Assembly: GCF_023913515.1 (NCBI RefSeq)
Contig: NZ_CP099391.1
Coordinates: forward strand, 3,410,001-3,474,000
Source: Natronococcus sp. CG52
Lineage (GTDB): Archaea; Halobacteriota; Halobacteria; Halobacteriales; Natrialbaceae
Direction of reading: 5' to 3'
Length of the DNA: 64,000 nt
The translations under genes and the position numbers were made by a program. The notes under the pieces are model-generated. The model saw only the letters and a list, made by a program, of their open reading frames with translations, ran no database searches and had not been told where the DNA came from. Shown here piece after piece: positions 4,008-25,708 of this stretch (positions within the stretch are counted from its first letter, which is position 1; every line of letters begins with the position of its first letter).

Positions 4008-5804
4008 GTGATCGGAACTGATGTGCCACGAGATAGCAATCCGCAGGACGACGGAGAATCGTCGAGAGAAGTATCGAAACTCAGTCGCCGGAATTTGATC
4101 CGCGTAGCGGGAACCGGTCTGCTTGCGACGACGGCACTCGAGCACACCAGTCCGAGTGTCGCGGCGACGGATACCGCGGAAAAGATCGAAGGGTCGGAAG
4201 CGGATCCGTGGAGACCGGCTTTCCACTTTGCACCGCCGAACGGCTGGATCAACGATCCGAACGGGTTGGTCTATCACGATGGCGTCTATCACCTGTTCTT
4301 CCAGTATCACCCCCACGATCCCTGGTGGGAGAAGATCCAGTGGGGACACGCGACCAGCGAGGACCTCTTCAGTTGGGCGTACCACGGTCTCAAACTGCCC
4401 TTCGACGACGAGAACAACATCGCGAAGTTCTCCGGCGGTGCGACGATCGACGAAGAAAACACGGCTGGATTCGGCGAAGATGCGCTGATTCTGTCGTATA
4501 CCGGCGCCCACTTCGACGATCCGATACAGGACCAACGCATCGCGTACAGCACGGATAACGGCAAAACGGTTACGCCGTACGACGGAAACCCGGTCGTCGA
4601 TACCGACGACCCGGAGTTCCGCGACCCGAACGTCTTCTGGTACGAACCGGATCAGCGGTGGATTATGGCCGTGTCCCGCGTTCACGACGGAGACGAAGAC
4701 GGGGAGGAGCGGCCCGCCGGTATCGAGATCTATCGCTCCGAAGACCATATCGACTGGACCTACGAAAGCACGTTCACGAACGACGAGTACAACGAACTCG
4801 TCGGCGACGAGAGCGAAAGCGTCTACGGCTATCATTCTCACTCGCCCGAGGCGAATCTGTGGGAGTGTCCCGATCTGTTCGAGTTGCCGGTCGAGGGTAG
4901 CGACGAAACCAAATGGGTCATGACGGTCTCCGTCGACCACCAGCGTGAGGATCATCTCGTCGGCGACTTCGACGGGTCGGAGTTCACGATGGAACGTCGC
5001 GAACTCGCGGACTACGGCTACGATTACTACGCTGCGATCTCGTGGGACAACGAACCCGACGACCGTCTGATCCAGCTCGGCTGGGCGTCTCACTGGCCCT
5101 ACGCCGAGCTCGTTCCCGAGACCGGATGGCGGGGGAGCATGTCGGTTCCGCGCGAACTCACCCTCGAGAAAGGTGACGACGGCGTCGAACTGCGACAGCG
5201 TCCCGTCGCGGAGCTAGCGACTCTTCGGCGGGAAACGCTCGCCGAGGTGCGCTCGGGGGAGATCACGCCGGGCAGAGATCCTCTAGAGGGAACGGACGCG
5301 GAGGGTCGTTCGCTCGAGATCCACGCGACTATCGATCCTCACAGCGCCGATACGTTCGGATTCCGGGTTCGAGAGGGTGAAAACGACGAGAGCCTCGTCA
5401 CGTATTACACGGACCCAGACGACGTCCCGGTTGTCGACGCGTCTCCGTCCGAAGGAGTCCCCCAACTGGTGTTCCAGCGGACGGATTCGTCCACCGACGG
5501 TCCGGCGGACGATTTCTTCGACGAGGGACAGGAAGACGCGACGAGCATGCCGCTCGAGCCGCGCGAGGACGGGACGATCGAACTCCACATCCTCGTCGAC
5601 CGATCGACGGTCGAAATCTTCGCCAACGACGGGGACCGGACGATGACGAACCTGGTGTTTCCCGACTGGGACAGCACAGGCGTTTCCCTCTTCGCGGAGA
5701 ACGGTGCTGCGAAGGTCGAAGACCTGGTCGTATACGACTTGGACCCGCAGCCGTTAGGCGTCACCCTTCACGAAGGATCTCACGAGGGCTCATATTCGGA
5801 GTGA
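4008..5804 (+). CDS. Secreted glycoside hydrolase family 32 (levanase/inulinase/invertase type)
   Basis: 598-residue beta-fructofuranosidase family enzyme, expected to hydrolyse fructans or sucrose outside the cell. A twin-arginine signal (SRRNLIR at 26-32, then a hydrophobic stretch to about 44) directs export of the folded protein. The five-bladed propeller carries the three GH32 acidic motifs: WINDPNG at 80-86 with nucleophile Asp83, FRDPNV at 204-209 with Asp206 as transition-state stabiliser, and WECPDL at 285-290 with acid/base Glu286. A C-terminal beta-sandwich follows from about 400 (HILVDRSTVEIF is typical). Start is GTG 4008, with GTG 4023 as alternative. No sugar transporter or second glycosidase is adjacent, so the gene stands alone; exact specificity is open. 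Confidence 0.92.
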   Translation: MIGTDVPRDSNPQDDGESSREVSKLSRRNLIRVAGTGLLATTALEHTSPSVAATDTAEKIEGSEADPWRPAFHFAPPNGWINDPNGLVYHDGVYHLFFQYHPHDPWWEKIQWGHATSEDLFSWAYHGLKLPFDDENNIAKFSGGATIDEENTAGFGEDALILSYTGAHFDDPIQDQRIAYSTDNGKTVTPYDGNPVVDTDDPEFRDPNVFWYEPDQRWIMAVSRVHDGDEDGEERPAGIEIYRSEDHIDWTYESTFTNDEYNELVGDESESVYGYHSHSPEANLWECPDLFELPVEGSDETKWVMTVSVDHQREDHLVGDFDGSEFTMERRELADYGYDYYAAISWDNEPDDRLIQLGWASHWPYAELVPETGWRGSMSVPRELTLEKGDDGVELRQRPVAELATLRRETLAEVRSGEITPGRDPLEGTDAEGRSLEIHATIDPHSADTFGFRVREGENDESLVTYYTDPDDVPVVDASPSEGVPQLVFQRTDSSTDGPADDFFDEGQEDATSMPLEPREDGTIELHILVDRSTVEIFANDGDRTMTNLVFPDWDSTGVSLFAENGAAKVEDLVVYDLDPQPLGVTLHEGSHEGSYSE

Positions 5805-16344: not shown

Positions 16345-17244
16345 TTACTGGGGCGGCTGGAGGTCGCGCTGGAACTCGTCGAAGACCTCGAAATCGTCGG
16401 GCAGGTCGTACTCGAGGTGACGTTCCTCCTGGCGGTTGACGCCCGCTTCCTCGATCGGCGTCGCGGTCTCCTCCCAGCCGGGCTTGATCTTGGCGCTCTT
16501 GGCGGGCATTCCGACGGCAATGTGATGGGCGGGAATGTCGTGTTGAACGACGCCGCGCGCGCCGACGATGGCGTTCTCCCCGACCTTGTTCCCGGCACGA
16601 ACCATCGAATCGTAGGTGAGTCGGACGTCGTCCTCGACGATCGTGTGGTAGTTTCGAACCTCGGTCTGGTCGACGACGTCGTGATCGTGGCTGTAGACGT
16701 GGACCCCGTCGGAGACCGAGACGCGGTCGCCGATCGTCAGTTTGCCCCGGTCGTCGAGGTGGACGTCGTCGTGAACGACGGCGTTGTCGCCGATCGTGAT
16801 GTTGTGGCCGTAGGTGAACGAGATTCCCTTGAAGAACCGGCAGCCGTCGCCGCACTCCTCGAAGAGGTGATTCGCGAGCATCCGCCGGAATCGCAGGGCG
16901 AACTCGACGTTGTCCGCGAGCGGGAGGCTGTCGAACTGTCGCCAGAGCCACTGGAGATGTTTCGAACGGCGGAACTTCTCCTCGTCCTTCTCGGCGTAGT
17001 ACTCGCTCTCGAGGGTCGTGTTACACGGATCGTAACTCTGGAGCCGAACGCGCTCGGCCGGCGAAACCGACTCGCCGTTCTGCCACTGCTCGTAGGCCTC
17101 GCGGTCGCCCGAAAGATCGATCAGCACGTCCTCGACGACCGTGCAGGTATCTTCGGCGCCCGACAGCCGTTGATCGACCTCGTCGATGAACTCGCGCATA
17201 CCCGCCTCCGCCTCGTCGGGGAGCGAGACGTACCGCTTTGTCAT
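16345..17244 (-). CDS. Left-handed beta-helix (hexapeptide repeat) acyltransferase
   Basis: 299 residues from ATG 17244 (MTKRYVSLPDEAE); an ATG 33 bases earlier is possible. The N-terminal 130 residues are helical and unrecognised. From about 140 the hexapeptide turns repeat (ITIGDNAVVHDDVHLDDRG, then LTIGDRVSVSDGV), followed by HDHD near 175 and the typical PAHHIAVGMPAK terminal turn seen in maltose/galactoside O-acetyltransferase relatives. It is likely a trimeric acetyl-CoA-dependent O-acetyltransferase acting on a sugar or surface glycan; the substrate is unknown. The long helical N-terminus is larger than in bacterial Maa/LacA enzymes. Confidence 0.82.
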   Translation of the reverse strand: MTKRYVSLPDEAEAGMREFIDEVDQRLSGAEDTCTVVEDVLIDLSGDREAYEQWQNGESVSPAERVRLQSYDPCNTTLESEYYAEKDEEKFRRSKHLQWLWRQFDSLPLADNVEFALRFRRMLANHLFEECGDGCRFFKGISFTYGHNITIGDNAVVHDDVHLDDRGKLTIGDRVSVSDGVHVYSHDHDVVDQTEVRNYHTIVEDDVRLTYDSMVRAGNKVGENAIVGARGVVQHDIPAHHIAVGMPAKSAKIKPGWEETATPIEEAGVNRQEERHLEYDLPDDFEVFDEFQRDLQPPQ

Positions 17245-17544
17245 ACGCCGATATACTGGTCCGGAGTTGATAGGCATTCGGTTGTCCCTTTCGACTTGCC
17301 ACGCCAGGTAACGTGAATGTAACCAGTCTCTGGCGGTGAGGCAATCGGTCGTTAGCGGTCGTCGACGAACCGTTCGAGCGGTACTTCTGCGCCGTAAACG
17401 AACGGTATTCGATTATCTTCTCGTAAGCGCAGCGCACGGAACCGAACTCCCGTCGGCGCCGCGGTCCGGCAGAATCGCTGTGGTCGATCCGACGAACCGG
17501 GAACTTCCGTACCCGCTAAGTGTCTCCGCTTCCAACTCGCAGAC
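17245..17544. other. Divergent intergenic region, acyltransferase and aldo/keto reductase
   Basis: 300 bases between two divergent genes. It must carry both promoters. No convincing coding frame or RNA gene was seen. Confidence 0.4.
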
Positions 17545-18600
17545 ATGCACTACCGGGAACTGGGCGACTCCGGGCTCGAGGTCAGCGAGATCGGCTTCGG
17601 CGCGTGGGTCGTCGGCACCGACTGGTGGGGCGACCGCTCGGAAGACGACGCCATCGAGATGGTCCAGTACGCCGTCGATCAGGACATCACGTACTTCGAT
17701 ACGGGTGACGTCTACGGCCACGGCCGGAGCGAGGAGTTGATCGGGCAGGCGCTCGCCGAGGTCCGCGACGAGGTCACCGTCGCGACCAAGGTCGGCTACG
17801 ACTTCTACAACAACCCGCAGGCCGGCCACGGCGAACTGCCCAAGGAGACGGATCCGGAGTACCTCCGGGACGCCGTCGAGCGGAGCCTCGAACGCCTCGG
17901 GATGGACTCGATCGACGTCCTGCAGCTGCACAACGCCAACGTCGACGAGATCACGCCCGACGTGCTCGAACTGCTCGACGAACTCGAGGAGGAAGGGACC
18001 ATCGGGGCGACGGGACTCGCGCTCGGCCCGTCGATCGGCTGGCTCGCGGAGGGCGACCTGGCGATCGAGGAGGAGTTCGACGCCGTCCAGCTCGTCTGGA
18101 ACGTGCTCGAACAGGAGGTCGGCAACCACTTCCTCGAGACGATCGAGGAGACCGGCTCGCGGACGAGCCTGATCCCCCGCGTTCCCCACTCCTCGGGCGT
18201 GCTGAACGAACAGGTCACGCCCGAGACCGAACTCGGCGAGGGCGACCACCGCGGCTTCCGCCCCGACGAGTGGTACGAGACCGGCTGGGAGAAACTCGAG
18301 GAGCTGCGGTTCCTCGAACGGGGGGACGAGCGAACGATGGGCCAGGCCACGCTCGCGTGGCTGCTCTCCCACGACTCGGTCGCGACCGTGACGCCGACGT
18401 TCCGCACCGCGGACGATATCGACGAGTGGGCCGCCGCGAGCGACGTGCCAAAACTCTCCGAAGGGGAGTTCGACCGCGTCGCCGAACTGTACGCGAACGA
18501 CTTCGACATCGATCGCGACGACGGGATGGACTCGCTGCGCTCGTCGGTCGACGGCGAGGACATCGAGTCCGCCGGGCTGGACAAACTCGCGGCCGACTGA
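17545..18600 (+). CDS. Aldo/keto reductase
   Basis: 351-residue NAD(P)H-dependent oxidoreductase with a TIM-barrel fold. The start MHYRELGDSGLEVSEIGFGAW is the family signature. The catalytic tetrad is visible: Asp in FDTGDVYGHGRSE near 52, Tyr in the same stretch near 57, Lys in VATKVGY near 84, and His in LQLHNAN near 130. A C-terminal Ser/Arg cofactor-binding region is less clear. The physiological substrate is unknown; relatives reduce sugars, steroids or aldehydes. It is divergent from the acyltransferase gene with a 300-base gap containing no other gene. Confidence 0.9.
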   Translation: MHYRELGDSGLEVSEIGFGAWVVGTDWWGDRSEDDAIEMVQYAVDQDITYFDTGDVYGHGRSEELIGQALAEVRDEVTVATKVGYDFYNNPQAGHGELPKETDPEYLRDAVERSLERLGMDSIDVLQLHNANVDEITPDVLELLDELEEEGTIGATGLALGPSIGWLAEGDLAIEEEFDAVQLVWNVLEQEVGNHFLETIEETGSRTSLIPRVPHSSGVLNEQVTPETELGEGDHRGFRPDEWYETGWEKLEELRFLERGDERTMGQATLAWLLSHDSVATVTPTFRTADDIDEWAAASDVPKLSEGEFDRVAELYANDFDIDRDDGMDSLRSSVDGEDIESAGLDKLAAD

Positions 18601-23306: not shown

Positions 23307-23389
23307 CTGCGCTCGAGACCGCGATCGACGAACTGTGACGCTGCTATCGTCCGAGCAACGAACCGTTCTGTAGCGGATTCGAGAACGGG

Positions 23390-23413
23390 CACACCCCTCG
23401 TTTTCAGTGAAAG
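23390..23413 (-). repeat. Origin recognition box, minus orientation
   Basis: Reads CACACCCCTCGTTTTCAGTG on the plus strand (continuing AAAG); the reverse complement contains TTCACTGAAAACGAGGGGT, the box consensus of this origin with the G-run at its end. It faces the plus-oriented box at 23617. Confidence 0.85.
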
Positions 23414-23520
23414 GGCTCGAGCGTGCGGTGCCGAAATCGCCAAACGAGAGGTACCTATATAAAGGATCTCTCCGAGAAAACTATCCGTTGAGAGCGTCCA
23501 GTACAGCACTCGCATCCTCT

Positions 23521-23565
23521 CTTCCACACTACTATATTACCTATACCATAAATAATATAATAACG
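23521..23565. other. AT-rich duplex-unwinding element
   Basis: Roughly 45 bases in which A and T strongly dominate, including ACTACTATATTACC and AATAATATAATAA, in a genome otherwise near two-thirds G+C. It lies between the inverted boxes. Confidence 0.7.
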
Positions 23566-23616
23566 CGTTCAGGAGGATTCGATCCGGAGTCGAAACGGAG
23601 GTCGCACTTTCGACGC

Positions 23617-23640
23617 CTTTCACTGAAAACGAGGGGTGGG
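23617..23640 (+). repeat. Origin recognition box, plus orientation
   Basis: Contains TTCACTGAAAACGAGGGGT followed by further G residues, inverted with respect to the box at 23390-23413. Confidence 0.85.
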
Positions 23641-23701
23641 TGTGCCGAGTCCTTTCAGCACACAAACTCGAAATTGGCCACTCTATCCCCGAATATCTCC
23701 T

Positions 23702-23719
23702 CTTTCACTGAAAATCAGG
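23702..23719 (+). repeat. Degenerate origin recognition box
   Basis: CTTTCACTGAAAATCAGG keeps the left half of the box but loses the G-run. It lies about 40 bases before the orc1 start codon, next to the TATA-like TTTATT at 23728-23733, so it may allow Orc1 to control its own gene (inference). Confidence 0.6.
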
Positions 23720-23759
23720 TTCGGTGGTTTTATTGGTACTCTCTGGAAACTCGTTGTCG

Positions 23760-25043
23760 ATGGGTAATGATCCGATTCCGACACCCTCTCTCGAGGATCT
23801 GCAGGACGATCCGATGGCGGACGGGACAACGTCGATCTTCCGTCGGCGCGAGCTTCTTCGCCCGCAGCACGTTCCTCAGAAGGACCGGATCGTCGGCCGC
23901 GACCGCGAGATAGAGACCGTCGAGGCGCTCCTCAAGCCGGCGGCCTTCGGTGACCCGCCGGAGAGCGGTTTCCTGTTCGGGAAGACCGGCACAGGAAAAT
24001 CGCTCGTCGCCAAACACGTCACGGGCCGCGCTCGAGGAATCGCACAGATGCACGGAACCGATCTGACGGCCGCGTACGTCGACTGCGATCAGTACAACAC
24101 GGAGACGCGAGCGGCACGAAAGCTAGCCTTCGAAGTCCGCGATGCGATCGATCCCGATCGCTACATTCCGAAAGACGGCGTCGGTGCGAGTCGGTACTAC
24201 GACGCGCTCTGGGACGGCGACGGTCTTCTGCACGAATCGGATTCCCTGACCGTCATTCTTGATGAAATCGACAAACTCGGTGACGACACTGCGGAGATCC
24301 TCTCGAAGCTCTCACGGTCCGAAGAGGCGGGGAAGACCGGCTGTTACATCTCGGTCGTCGCGATCAGCAACAAGACGGACTACACTGACGCGCCGGACGA
24401 GCGGGTCGCCTCGAGTTTCCAGGATGATCCGATCATCTTCCCGCCGTACGACGCGAACCAGTTACAGGCGATTCTCGAGCGCCGGAAAGACGCGTACAAG
24501 GACGGCGTCCTCGAGGAGGGCGTGATCGAACTGGCGTCCGCACTCGCCGCCCGCGACCACGGCGACGCGCGCCGAGCGCTCGACATCCTTCGATCCGCGG
24601 GCAAACTCGCAGAGAAGGACGGCAGCGATCGAGTGTCCGAGGATCACGTTCGAGACGCCGACGAGTACAGCGACCTCAACCGCTCCATCCAGGTCATCAA
24701 GAACGGCACTCCCCACTCGCGGTACGCGCTGTACGCGCTGGCATACCTGACGAAATCGATGCTCAAGGATTCGTTCTCAACCGGCGAACTCTACGACACG
24801 TACTCTATCGTCGCCGAAGTTGCTGCCGGCGAATCGCTGACACACCAGCGAGTGCTCGATCTGATGAAGAAGTGGACGCTTCCCGAGATCACCGAGAGTC
24901 GACACACGGGCGGCGGCAAGGGTCAGGGAAGCTACCGAACCCATCGATTACTGCACGACCCGGACGTCGTGATGAGCGCCTGCCTCGAGTCCGCCAGCGA
25001 ACAACGCACCGTACTGGACGCGCTCTCCGACTCGTCGGTCTGA
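23760..25043 (+). CDS. orc1: Orc1/Cdc6 replication initiator
   Basis: 427-residue AAA+ ATPase that binds the neighbouring boxes and starts replication. The start is ATG 23760; a longer frame to 23724 runs into the promoter. Walker A is GKTGTGKS at 74-81, Walker B VILDEIDKLGD near 168-178, then sensor 1 (ISVVAISNKTDYTD near 205) and sensor 2 around GDARRALDILR near 275. The C-terminal winged helix (about 315-427, with SFSTGELYDTYS and GKGQGSYRTHRL) contacts the boxes. Haloarchaea carry several Orc paralogues, and only some are tied to an origin; this one clearly is, since boxes flank it on both sides. Confidence 0.95.
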   Translation: MGNDPIPTPSLEDLQDDPMADGTTSIFRRRELLRPQHVPQKDRIVGRDREIETVEALLKPAAFGDPPESGFLFGKTGTGKSLVAKHVTGRARGIAQMHGTDLTAAYVDCDQYNTETRAARKLAFEVRDAIDPDRYIPKDGVGASRYYDALWDGDGLLHESDSLTVILDEIDKLGDDTAEILSKLSRSEEAGKTGCYISVVAISNKTDYTDAPDERVASSFQDDPIIFPPYDANQLQAILERRKDAYKDGVLEEGVIELASALAARDHGDARRALDILRSAGKLAEKDGSDRVSEDHVRDADEYSDLNRSIQVIKNGTPHSRYALYALAYLTKSMLKDSFSTGELYDTYSIVAEVAAGESLTHQRVLDLMKKWTLPEITESRHTGGGKGQGSYRTHRLLHDPDVVMSACLESASEQRTVLDALSDSSV

Positions 25044-25049
25044 CGCTGC

Positions 25050-25138
25050 TTTTCATTGAAAACGAGGGGTGGATTGGTCCCGCTTCACTGAAAACGAGGG
25101 GTGCCTCGAGAGAACGCTTTCACTGAAAACGAGGGGTG
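25050..25138 (+). repeat. Three tandem origin recognition boxes downstream of orc1
   Basis: Copies at 25050-25072 (one mismatch, TTCATTGAAAACGAGGGGT), 25083-25103 and 25117-25138, all in plus orientation with cores spaced 32 and 35 bases apart. They begin seven bases after the orc1 stop. With the upstream boxes this gives six, one degenerate. Confidence 0.85.
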
Positions 25139-25252
25139 TCAACCAGTAGCGGACCACACGAAACTGACGTTCGAAGGTCGTGTGAGCCGCGTCCACAGTT
25201 CACTATTGCAGATCGAAACTGGACGTCGAACCAACTATCGTGACTCGAGCGA

Positions 25253-25708
25253 CTACACCGCCGGAACGGGCGGTAACTTCGCGGCCTTGACCCAGAACTC
25301 CTCGACTGACCGAGCGAGCGAGACGAACTCGTCCTGGCTGTCGGGCTTGGTGAGATAGGCGTTCGCGCACAGGTCGTAGCTCTCGCTGATATCCGTCTCG
25401 TCGTCCGAACTCGTGAGTACGATCACCGGAAGCATTGTCAGCGCCGGATCGTCCCGAATCTCCTCGAGCACCTCGAATCCGTTCGTTCGGGGGACGTTCA
25501 GATCGAGCAACAGCAGATCTGGGAAGGGAGTAGCGTCGGCATCTTTTTTATCTGATAAAAACTCCAGCGCCTCGGTGCCGTCGGCGACGGAATGGAGCCG
25601 AATTTCGTCGGACACCACCTCGAACGCCTCCTCAACGAGTCGGACGTCCCCGGGGTTATCCTCGACGAGAAGAACGTCGATTGGTTTGGACGGGGTCGTA
25701 GTTCTCAT
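25253..25708 (-). CDS. Receiver-only response regulator (Rcp1-like)
   Basis: 151 residues from ATG 25708 (MRTTTPSKPIDVLLVEDNPG). A single receiver domain: acidic pair in LLVEDN, phospho-acceptor Asp in LLLLDLNVPRTNGFEVLEEI near 66, Thr/Ser in VIVLTSSDDE near 95, and Lys in AYLTKPDSQDEF near 115. The DNPGDVRLVEEAF start and absence of an output domain are typical of Rcp1-like regulators partnered with phytochrome-like or other haloarchaeal histidine kinases. No kinase gene lies nearby. It is convergent towards the origin boxes at 25138, leaving 114 bases between. Confidence 0.88.
   Translation of the reverse strand: MRTTTPSKPIDVLLVEDNPGDVRLVEEAFEVVSDEIRLHSVADGTEALEFLSDKKDADATPFPDLLLLDLNVPRTNGFEVLEEIRDDPALTMLPVIVLTSSDDETDISESYDLCANAYLTKPDSQDEFVSLARSVEEFWVKAAKLPPVPAV

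Follow-up and report, generated by a model that had tools for sequence, protein, structure and literature searches.

A probable accessory replication origin inserted, with its own orc1/cdc6 gene, in a Natronococcus chromosome

Accessory haloarchaeal origins next to an orc/cdc6 gene are a known type, and in Wu et al. 2012 (PMC3528665) they combine inverted, G-string-bearing ORBs with an AT-rich element and the adjacent gene, have ORBs whose sequence goes with the Orc family and spread horizontally. Gain, transfer, disruption and loss of such origins are already published (PMC3528665, PMC4441112); in Haloarcula, for example, oriC3-cdc6D and other variable origins are accessory ones that have been acquired, disrupted or lost, at sites that vary (PMC4441112). 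In Haloarcula hispanica every origin depends on its own cdc6, the G-strings of oriC1 are essential, and oriC2 is kept in check by the ORBs that follow cdc6E, likely via titration (PMC3936714). The gene neighbourhood of oriC1 is syntenic in haloarchaea (PMC3528665). Here we analyse a 64,000-nt stretch of the Natronococcus sp. CG52 chromosome (the window) and read one locus in it as an accessory, non-oriC1, horizontally acquired Orc1/Cdc6-dependent origin, present as a self-contained cassette in a Natrialbaceae chromosome (probability roughly 0.85). Judged from its sequence, the locus very probably provides an additional starting point for replication, together with a dedicated initiator gene. 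The type of origin is known; the instructive new detail suggested by our data is an evolutionary scar in a congener, seen in a single instance. Within one genus, a single locus is seen unoccupied, occupied and scarred, the pattern that an accessory archaeal origin would leave by arriving without passengers and later losing its initiator. This bears on why haloarchaea have many orc genes and origins, and the congeners with, without and with a gene-less cassette are suited to asking whether one extra origin alters chromosome replication.

The cassette runs in the order ORB(-), AT-rich element, ORB(+), half-ORB with promoter, orc1/cdc6 and three ORB(+), with the following features (window coordinates):

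23318..25257, no strand: inserted block with the whole origin cassette; limits approximate, taken from the homology edges of congeners G003 and G004
23392..23412, minus: ORB1, with G-string, facing ORB2; outward extension GGGGTGTGCC to 23388 (sequence and alignment)
23522..23570, no strand: AT-rich element, presumed duplex unwinding element, core AATATAATAA (composition and alignment)
23618..23638, plus: ORB2, facing ORB1; G-string extends to 23646 (GGGGTGGGTGTGCC) (sequence)
23702..23719, plus: half-ORB without G-string (CTTTCACTGAAAATCAGG), 41-58 bp upstream of the orc start (sequence)
23728..23735, plus: TATA-like element of orc (TTTTATTG), just downstream of the half-ORB (sequence; TTTAT conserved in relatives)
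23760..25043, plus: orc1/cdc6 initiator gene, 427 aa, intact (Pfam AAA, Cdc6_lid, Cdc6_C)
25051..25071, plus: ORB3, one mismatch, 8 bp past the orc stop codon
25083..25103, plus: ORB4, 40 bp past the stop codon
25118..25138, plus: ORB5, 75 bp past the stop codon

The original prediction placed inverted boxes at 23390-23413 (minus) and 23617-23640 (plus), and a mutually inverted pair of perfect 21-nt boxes (TTTCACTGAAAACGAGGGGTG) lies there, 205 bp apart, each ending in the G-string CGAGGGGTG. The shorter form TTCACTGAAAACGAGGGGT occurs without mismatch at 23393-23411 (minus) and 23619-23637 (plus). At up to 3 mismatches the window holds five matches against 0.01 expected, and none of 100 shuffles gave five. 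Across the whole 4.74-Mb genome, searched and sampled stretch by stretch, all five near-perfect boxes fall within 23392-25138 (1.75 kb); no further full box with 2 or fewer mismatches was found outside the cassette, the next best having 3. The two facing boxes of the prediction were therefore right, while the three direct boxes 3' of orc and the half-ORB at 23702-23719 had been overlooked. The AT-rich stretch said to lie between the boxes contains the top A+T 40-mers of the window (up to 77.5%), and its core is found in every intact cassette aligned. ORB1 is identical in the Natronolimnohabitans, Haloterrigena, Natrinema and Natronorubrum cassettes, and the half-ORB, presumably an autoregulatory site of orc, keeps its position in relatives, followed by TTTAT. 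Just inside the ORBs, the locus shows no G-rich inverted repeat of the H. hispanica oriC1 type.

The gene directly downstream, predicted to be orc1, encodes a complete Orc1/Cdc6: the AAA, lid and winged-helix domains are all present, and the protein is related along its length to Sulfolobus solfataricus Cdc6-1 (PDB 2qby chain A). The gene is under strong purifying selection, with a dN/dS of 0.03-0.05 across relatives in pairs with unsaturated dS. With an intergenic position next to an orc/cdc6 gene of more than 300 aa (here 427) carrying AAA and winged-helix domains, at least two inverted G-string ORBs and an AT-rich element amid them, the locus fits the layout of haloarchaeal origins as well as the archaeal one that had been claimed for it.

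Set against the general layout in Wu et al. 2012 (PMC3528665), the Natrialbaceae cassette family has in addition a half-box at the promoter and a constant complement of 2-4 ORBs downstream. ORBs on both sides of the initiator gene are shared with H. hispanica oriC2-cdc6E/oriC2D (PMC3936714), and several lie directly 3' of the gene in both; oriC2D has 11 boxes against three downstream in the window, a likeness of layout, Orc orthology aside. The downstream cluster lacks a facing pair and an AT core, which makes it a candidate titrating site. With haloarchaeal oriC1 the locus shares facing ORBs around an AT-rich element, but its Orc family, box sequence and neighbours differ. Disruptions in Haloarcula (PMC4441112) involve transposases, whereas the junction in our congener G001 lies inside an ORB, and, unlike the Haloarcula variable origins, the cassette came in alone, with no further genes. 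In the open-licence literature we found no description of the fixed anatomy, of a bare insertion with its empty site or of an ORB-internal deletion scar. By analogy with H. hispanica, the cognate Orc1/Cdc6 would bind the facing ORB1 and ORB2, after which the AT-rich element would open and MCM be loaded. The half-ORB at the promoter probably lets Orc control its own gene, and ORB3-5 are probably titration sites that damp firing, in the manner of oriC2D. Recombination between the same-strand boxes on either side of orc could cut this gene out, so that an origin without orc remains.

Of the nine genomes of the genus, one has the window initiator, as do 10 of the 392 genomes of the order; the genes flanking the cassette are present in every one of the nine. 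In G003 and G004, homology runs up to 23317 and resumes from 25258 with 47-48 bp between, an empty site. The left neighbours are DUF7533 and riboflavin synthase, and the receiver, M24 and UvrD genes named in the original prediction do lie on the right side. Cassettes of ~1.8 kb also occur at unrelated chromosomal and plasmid sites in other genomes. The plan is repeated in six relatives (Natronolimnohabitans sp. A-GB9, N. innermongolicus, Haloterrigena salina, Natrinema mahii, a Natronorubrum bangense plasmid and a Halovenus MAG), with ORB(-) at -351 to -391, ORB(+) always at -142/-141 and 2-4 ORBs downstream. None of these relatives has a flanking gene in common with the window; the shared block is the cassette only. 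Plasmid-borne copies are found in N. bangense, Natrinema versiforme, Natrinema sp. SYSU A 869 and Natronosalvus amylolyticus. Two of the six relatives (L028 and L030) have flanks common to both, so there the cassette has also been inherited in place. Sporadic occurrence, empty sites and cassette-only homology together indicate that a bare cassette of origin and initiator entered an intergenic site. By its sequence the insert is a bare one of ~1.9 kb, between DUF7533 and the response-regulator gene and without integrase, transposase or passenger genes. No credible target-site duplication was seen at the insertion, the best flank repeat being 8 bp (GTAGCGGA) and matched in 12% of shuffles. As to a viral source, the sole match in a phage collection was an Orc of 27% identity from a single Natrinema virus, which has two accessions there.

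At the same site, congener G008 carries 2.8 kb of unrelated DNA (L045 2890-5727), with ORFs that we take to include cold-shock-like and DUF488-like ones; given this second occupant, the intergenic spot may be an insertion hotspot. In family f17, five loci from large genomes of one genus (L093, L094, L095, L098 and L099), one of them a Haladaptatus plasmid by its coordinates, combine a near-identical ORB with an Orc of only 55-57% identity; conservation of the box thus reaches well past that of the protein.

Congener G001 shares the insertion and has kept ORB1 and ORB2 perfectly, and it has no orc at the locus and no relative of it at E <= 1e-150 in the entire genome. The left flank of its second box is that of window ORB2 and the right flank that of window ORB5 (TCAACCAGTAGCGG), the switch falling within a 22-nt identical repeat inside a box. 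This junction is what ORB2 x ORB5 recombination would be expected to produce, and so suggests such an event. Loss in G001 is the simpler direction because outgroup cassettes carry the gene and the downstream boxes. Alignment shows that the G001 AT core has also lost 12 bp; lacking these as well as orc, the locus would have two defects that keep it from working as the original type of origin. It is internal to a 340-kb contig, and an assembly error caused by the 22-bp repeat is unlikely. The ORB-internal scar is known to us from this one case. Other copies have decayed differently: orc is frameshifted in N. amylolyticus, and in Natrinema sp. SYSU A 869 it is broken and ORB2 is missing. A genome of another family (G118) has an ORB set at 5091(-), 5161(-), 5310(+) and 5487(+) of a 10-kb stretch (L121, G118:C3:129000-139000) with no orc homologue within that stretch, apparently a second gene-less origin. 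Unlikely but worth stating is a broader idea, that ORBs double as recombination sites from which the initiator can be excised, repeatedly giving 'solo' origins (compare solo LTRs), and that the 1.8-kb cassette is a minimal mobile replicator without its own transposase.

A structurally intact origin need not be a used one. Predicted haloarchaeal origins outnumber active ones (PMC4441112), so the window origin may be dormant, firing rarely or never in the wild type while oriC1 and others dominate. Dormant origins are known (PMC4441112, PMC4595724) and the congeners manage without the cassette; yet its boxes and AT core are intact, its orc has been kept under purifying selection across relatives, and unused copies elsewhere are visibly broken. 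We consider dormancy possible, if doubtful. Far less probable is that the boxes are only transcriptional operators of orc and mark no origin. The half-ORB directly upstream of the TATA-like element would suit such a role, but a facing G-string pair 205 bp apart around a conserved AT core is unlike an operator, further boxes lie past the 3' end of orc, and the layout matches experimentally proven origins (PMC3936714).

The remaining alternative, that the locus is oriC1 itself, the ancestral origin of haloarchaea, with its surroundings rearranged, can be dismissed with near certainty. Inverted ORBs adjoining an orc gene would fit it, but the genome, with ~13 orc-like genes and fragments across three contigs, has a separate oriC1-type locus at C1:16.4-19.2 kb. 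Its 576-aa Orc1 (gene at C1:16.4-18.1 kb) scores 359 bits against S. solfataricus Cdc6-1, compared with 165 for the window Orc. This Orc1 adjoins the PolD small subunit (PF04042), with an Era-like GTPase and OapB ('origin-associated protein B') beyond the origin, and canonical boxes TTGAAACGAAGGGGTGGGGG have an inverse partner ~300 bp off. PolD small subunit and OapB are marker genes of the oriC1 neighbourhood, and here they lie at C1:13-21 kb, ~0.52 Mb from the window locus at C1:3.4335 Mb. Whereas the oriC1 Orc is one found in all haloarchaea, eight of the nine genomes of the genus lack the window orc. The suggestion that this is an additional origin thus held, its initiator being a different, patchy paralogue. 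Another orc, at C1:988961, was considered as the oriC1 gene and rejected: it is accessory, occurring in this genus and a near relative, and none of the other families sampled has it at E <= 1e-150.

The start of contig C1 seems to be repeated at its end by tens of kb (16553-17995 and 3952845-3954287 carry the same match). The circle would therefore be ~3.936 Mb, which gives the distance to oriC1 stated above, and copy counts near oriC1 come out too high. GC skew was sampled across roughly one-third of the chromosome, most densely around the window; it has no shift at the window locus and none at oriC1 either, 20-kb skews scattering within ~+/-0.03 throughout, and so speaks neither for nor against activity of the origin. 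Right of ~36 kb in the window (36001-64000) the skew stays positive, at +0.01 to +0.08 per 4 kb, a feature not tied to the origin. A further orc-like gene, at 1389416, lies in C1:1378000-1394000 (L087), a region of 48% GC in a genome of ~64% and probably an integrated element.
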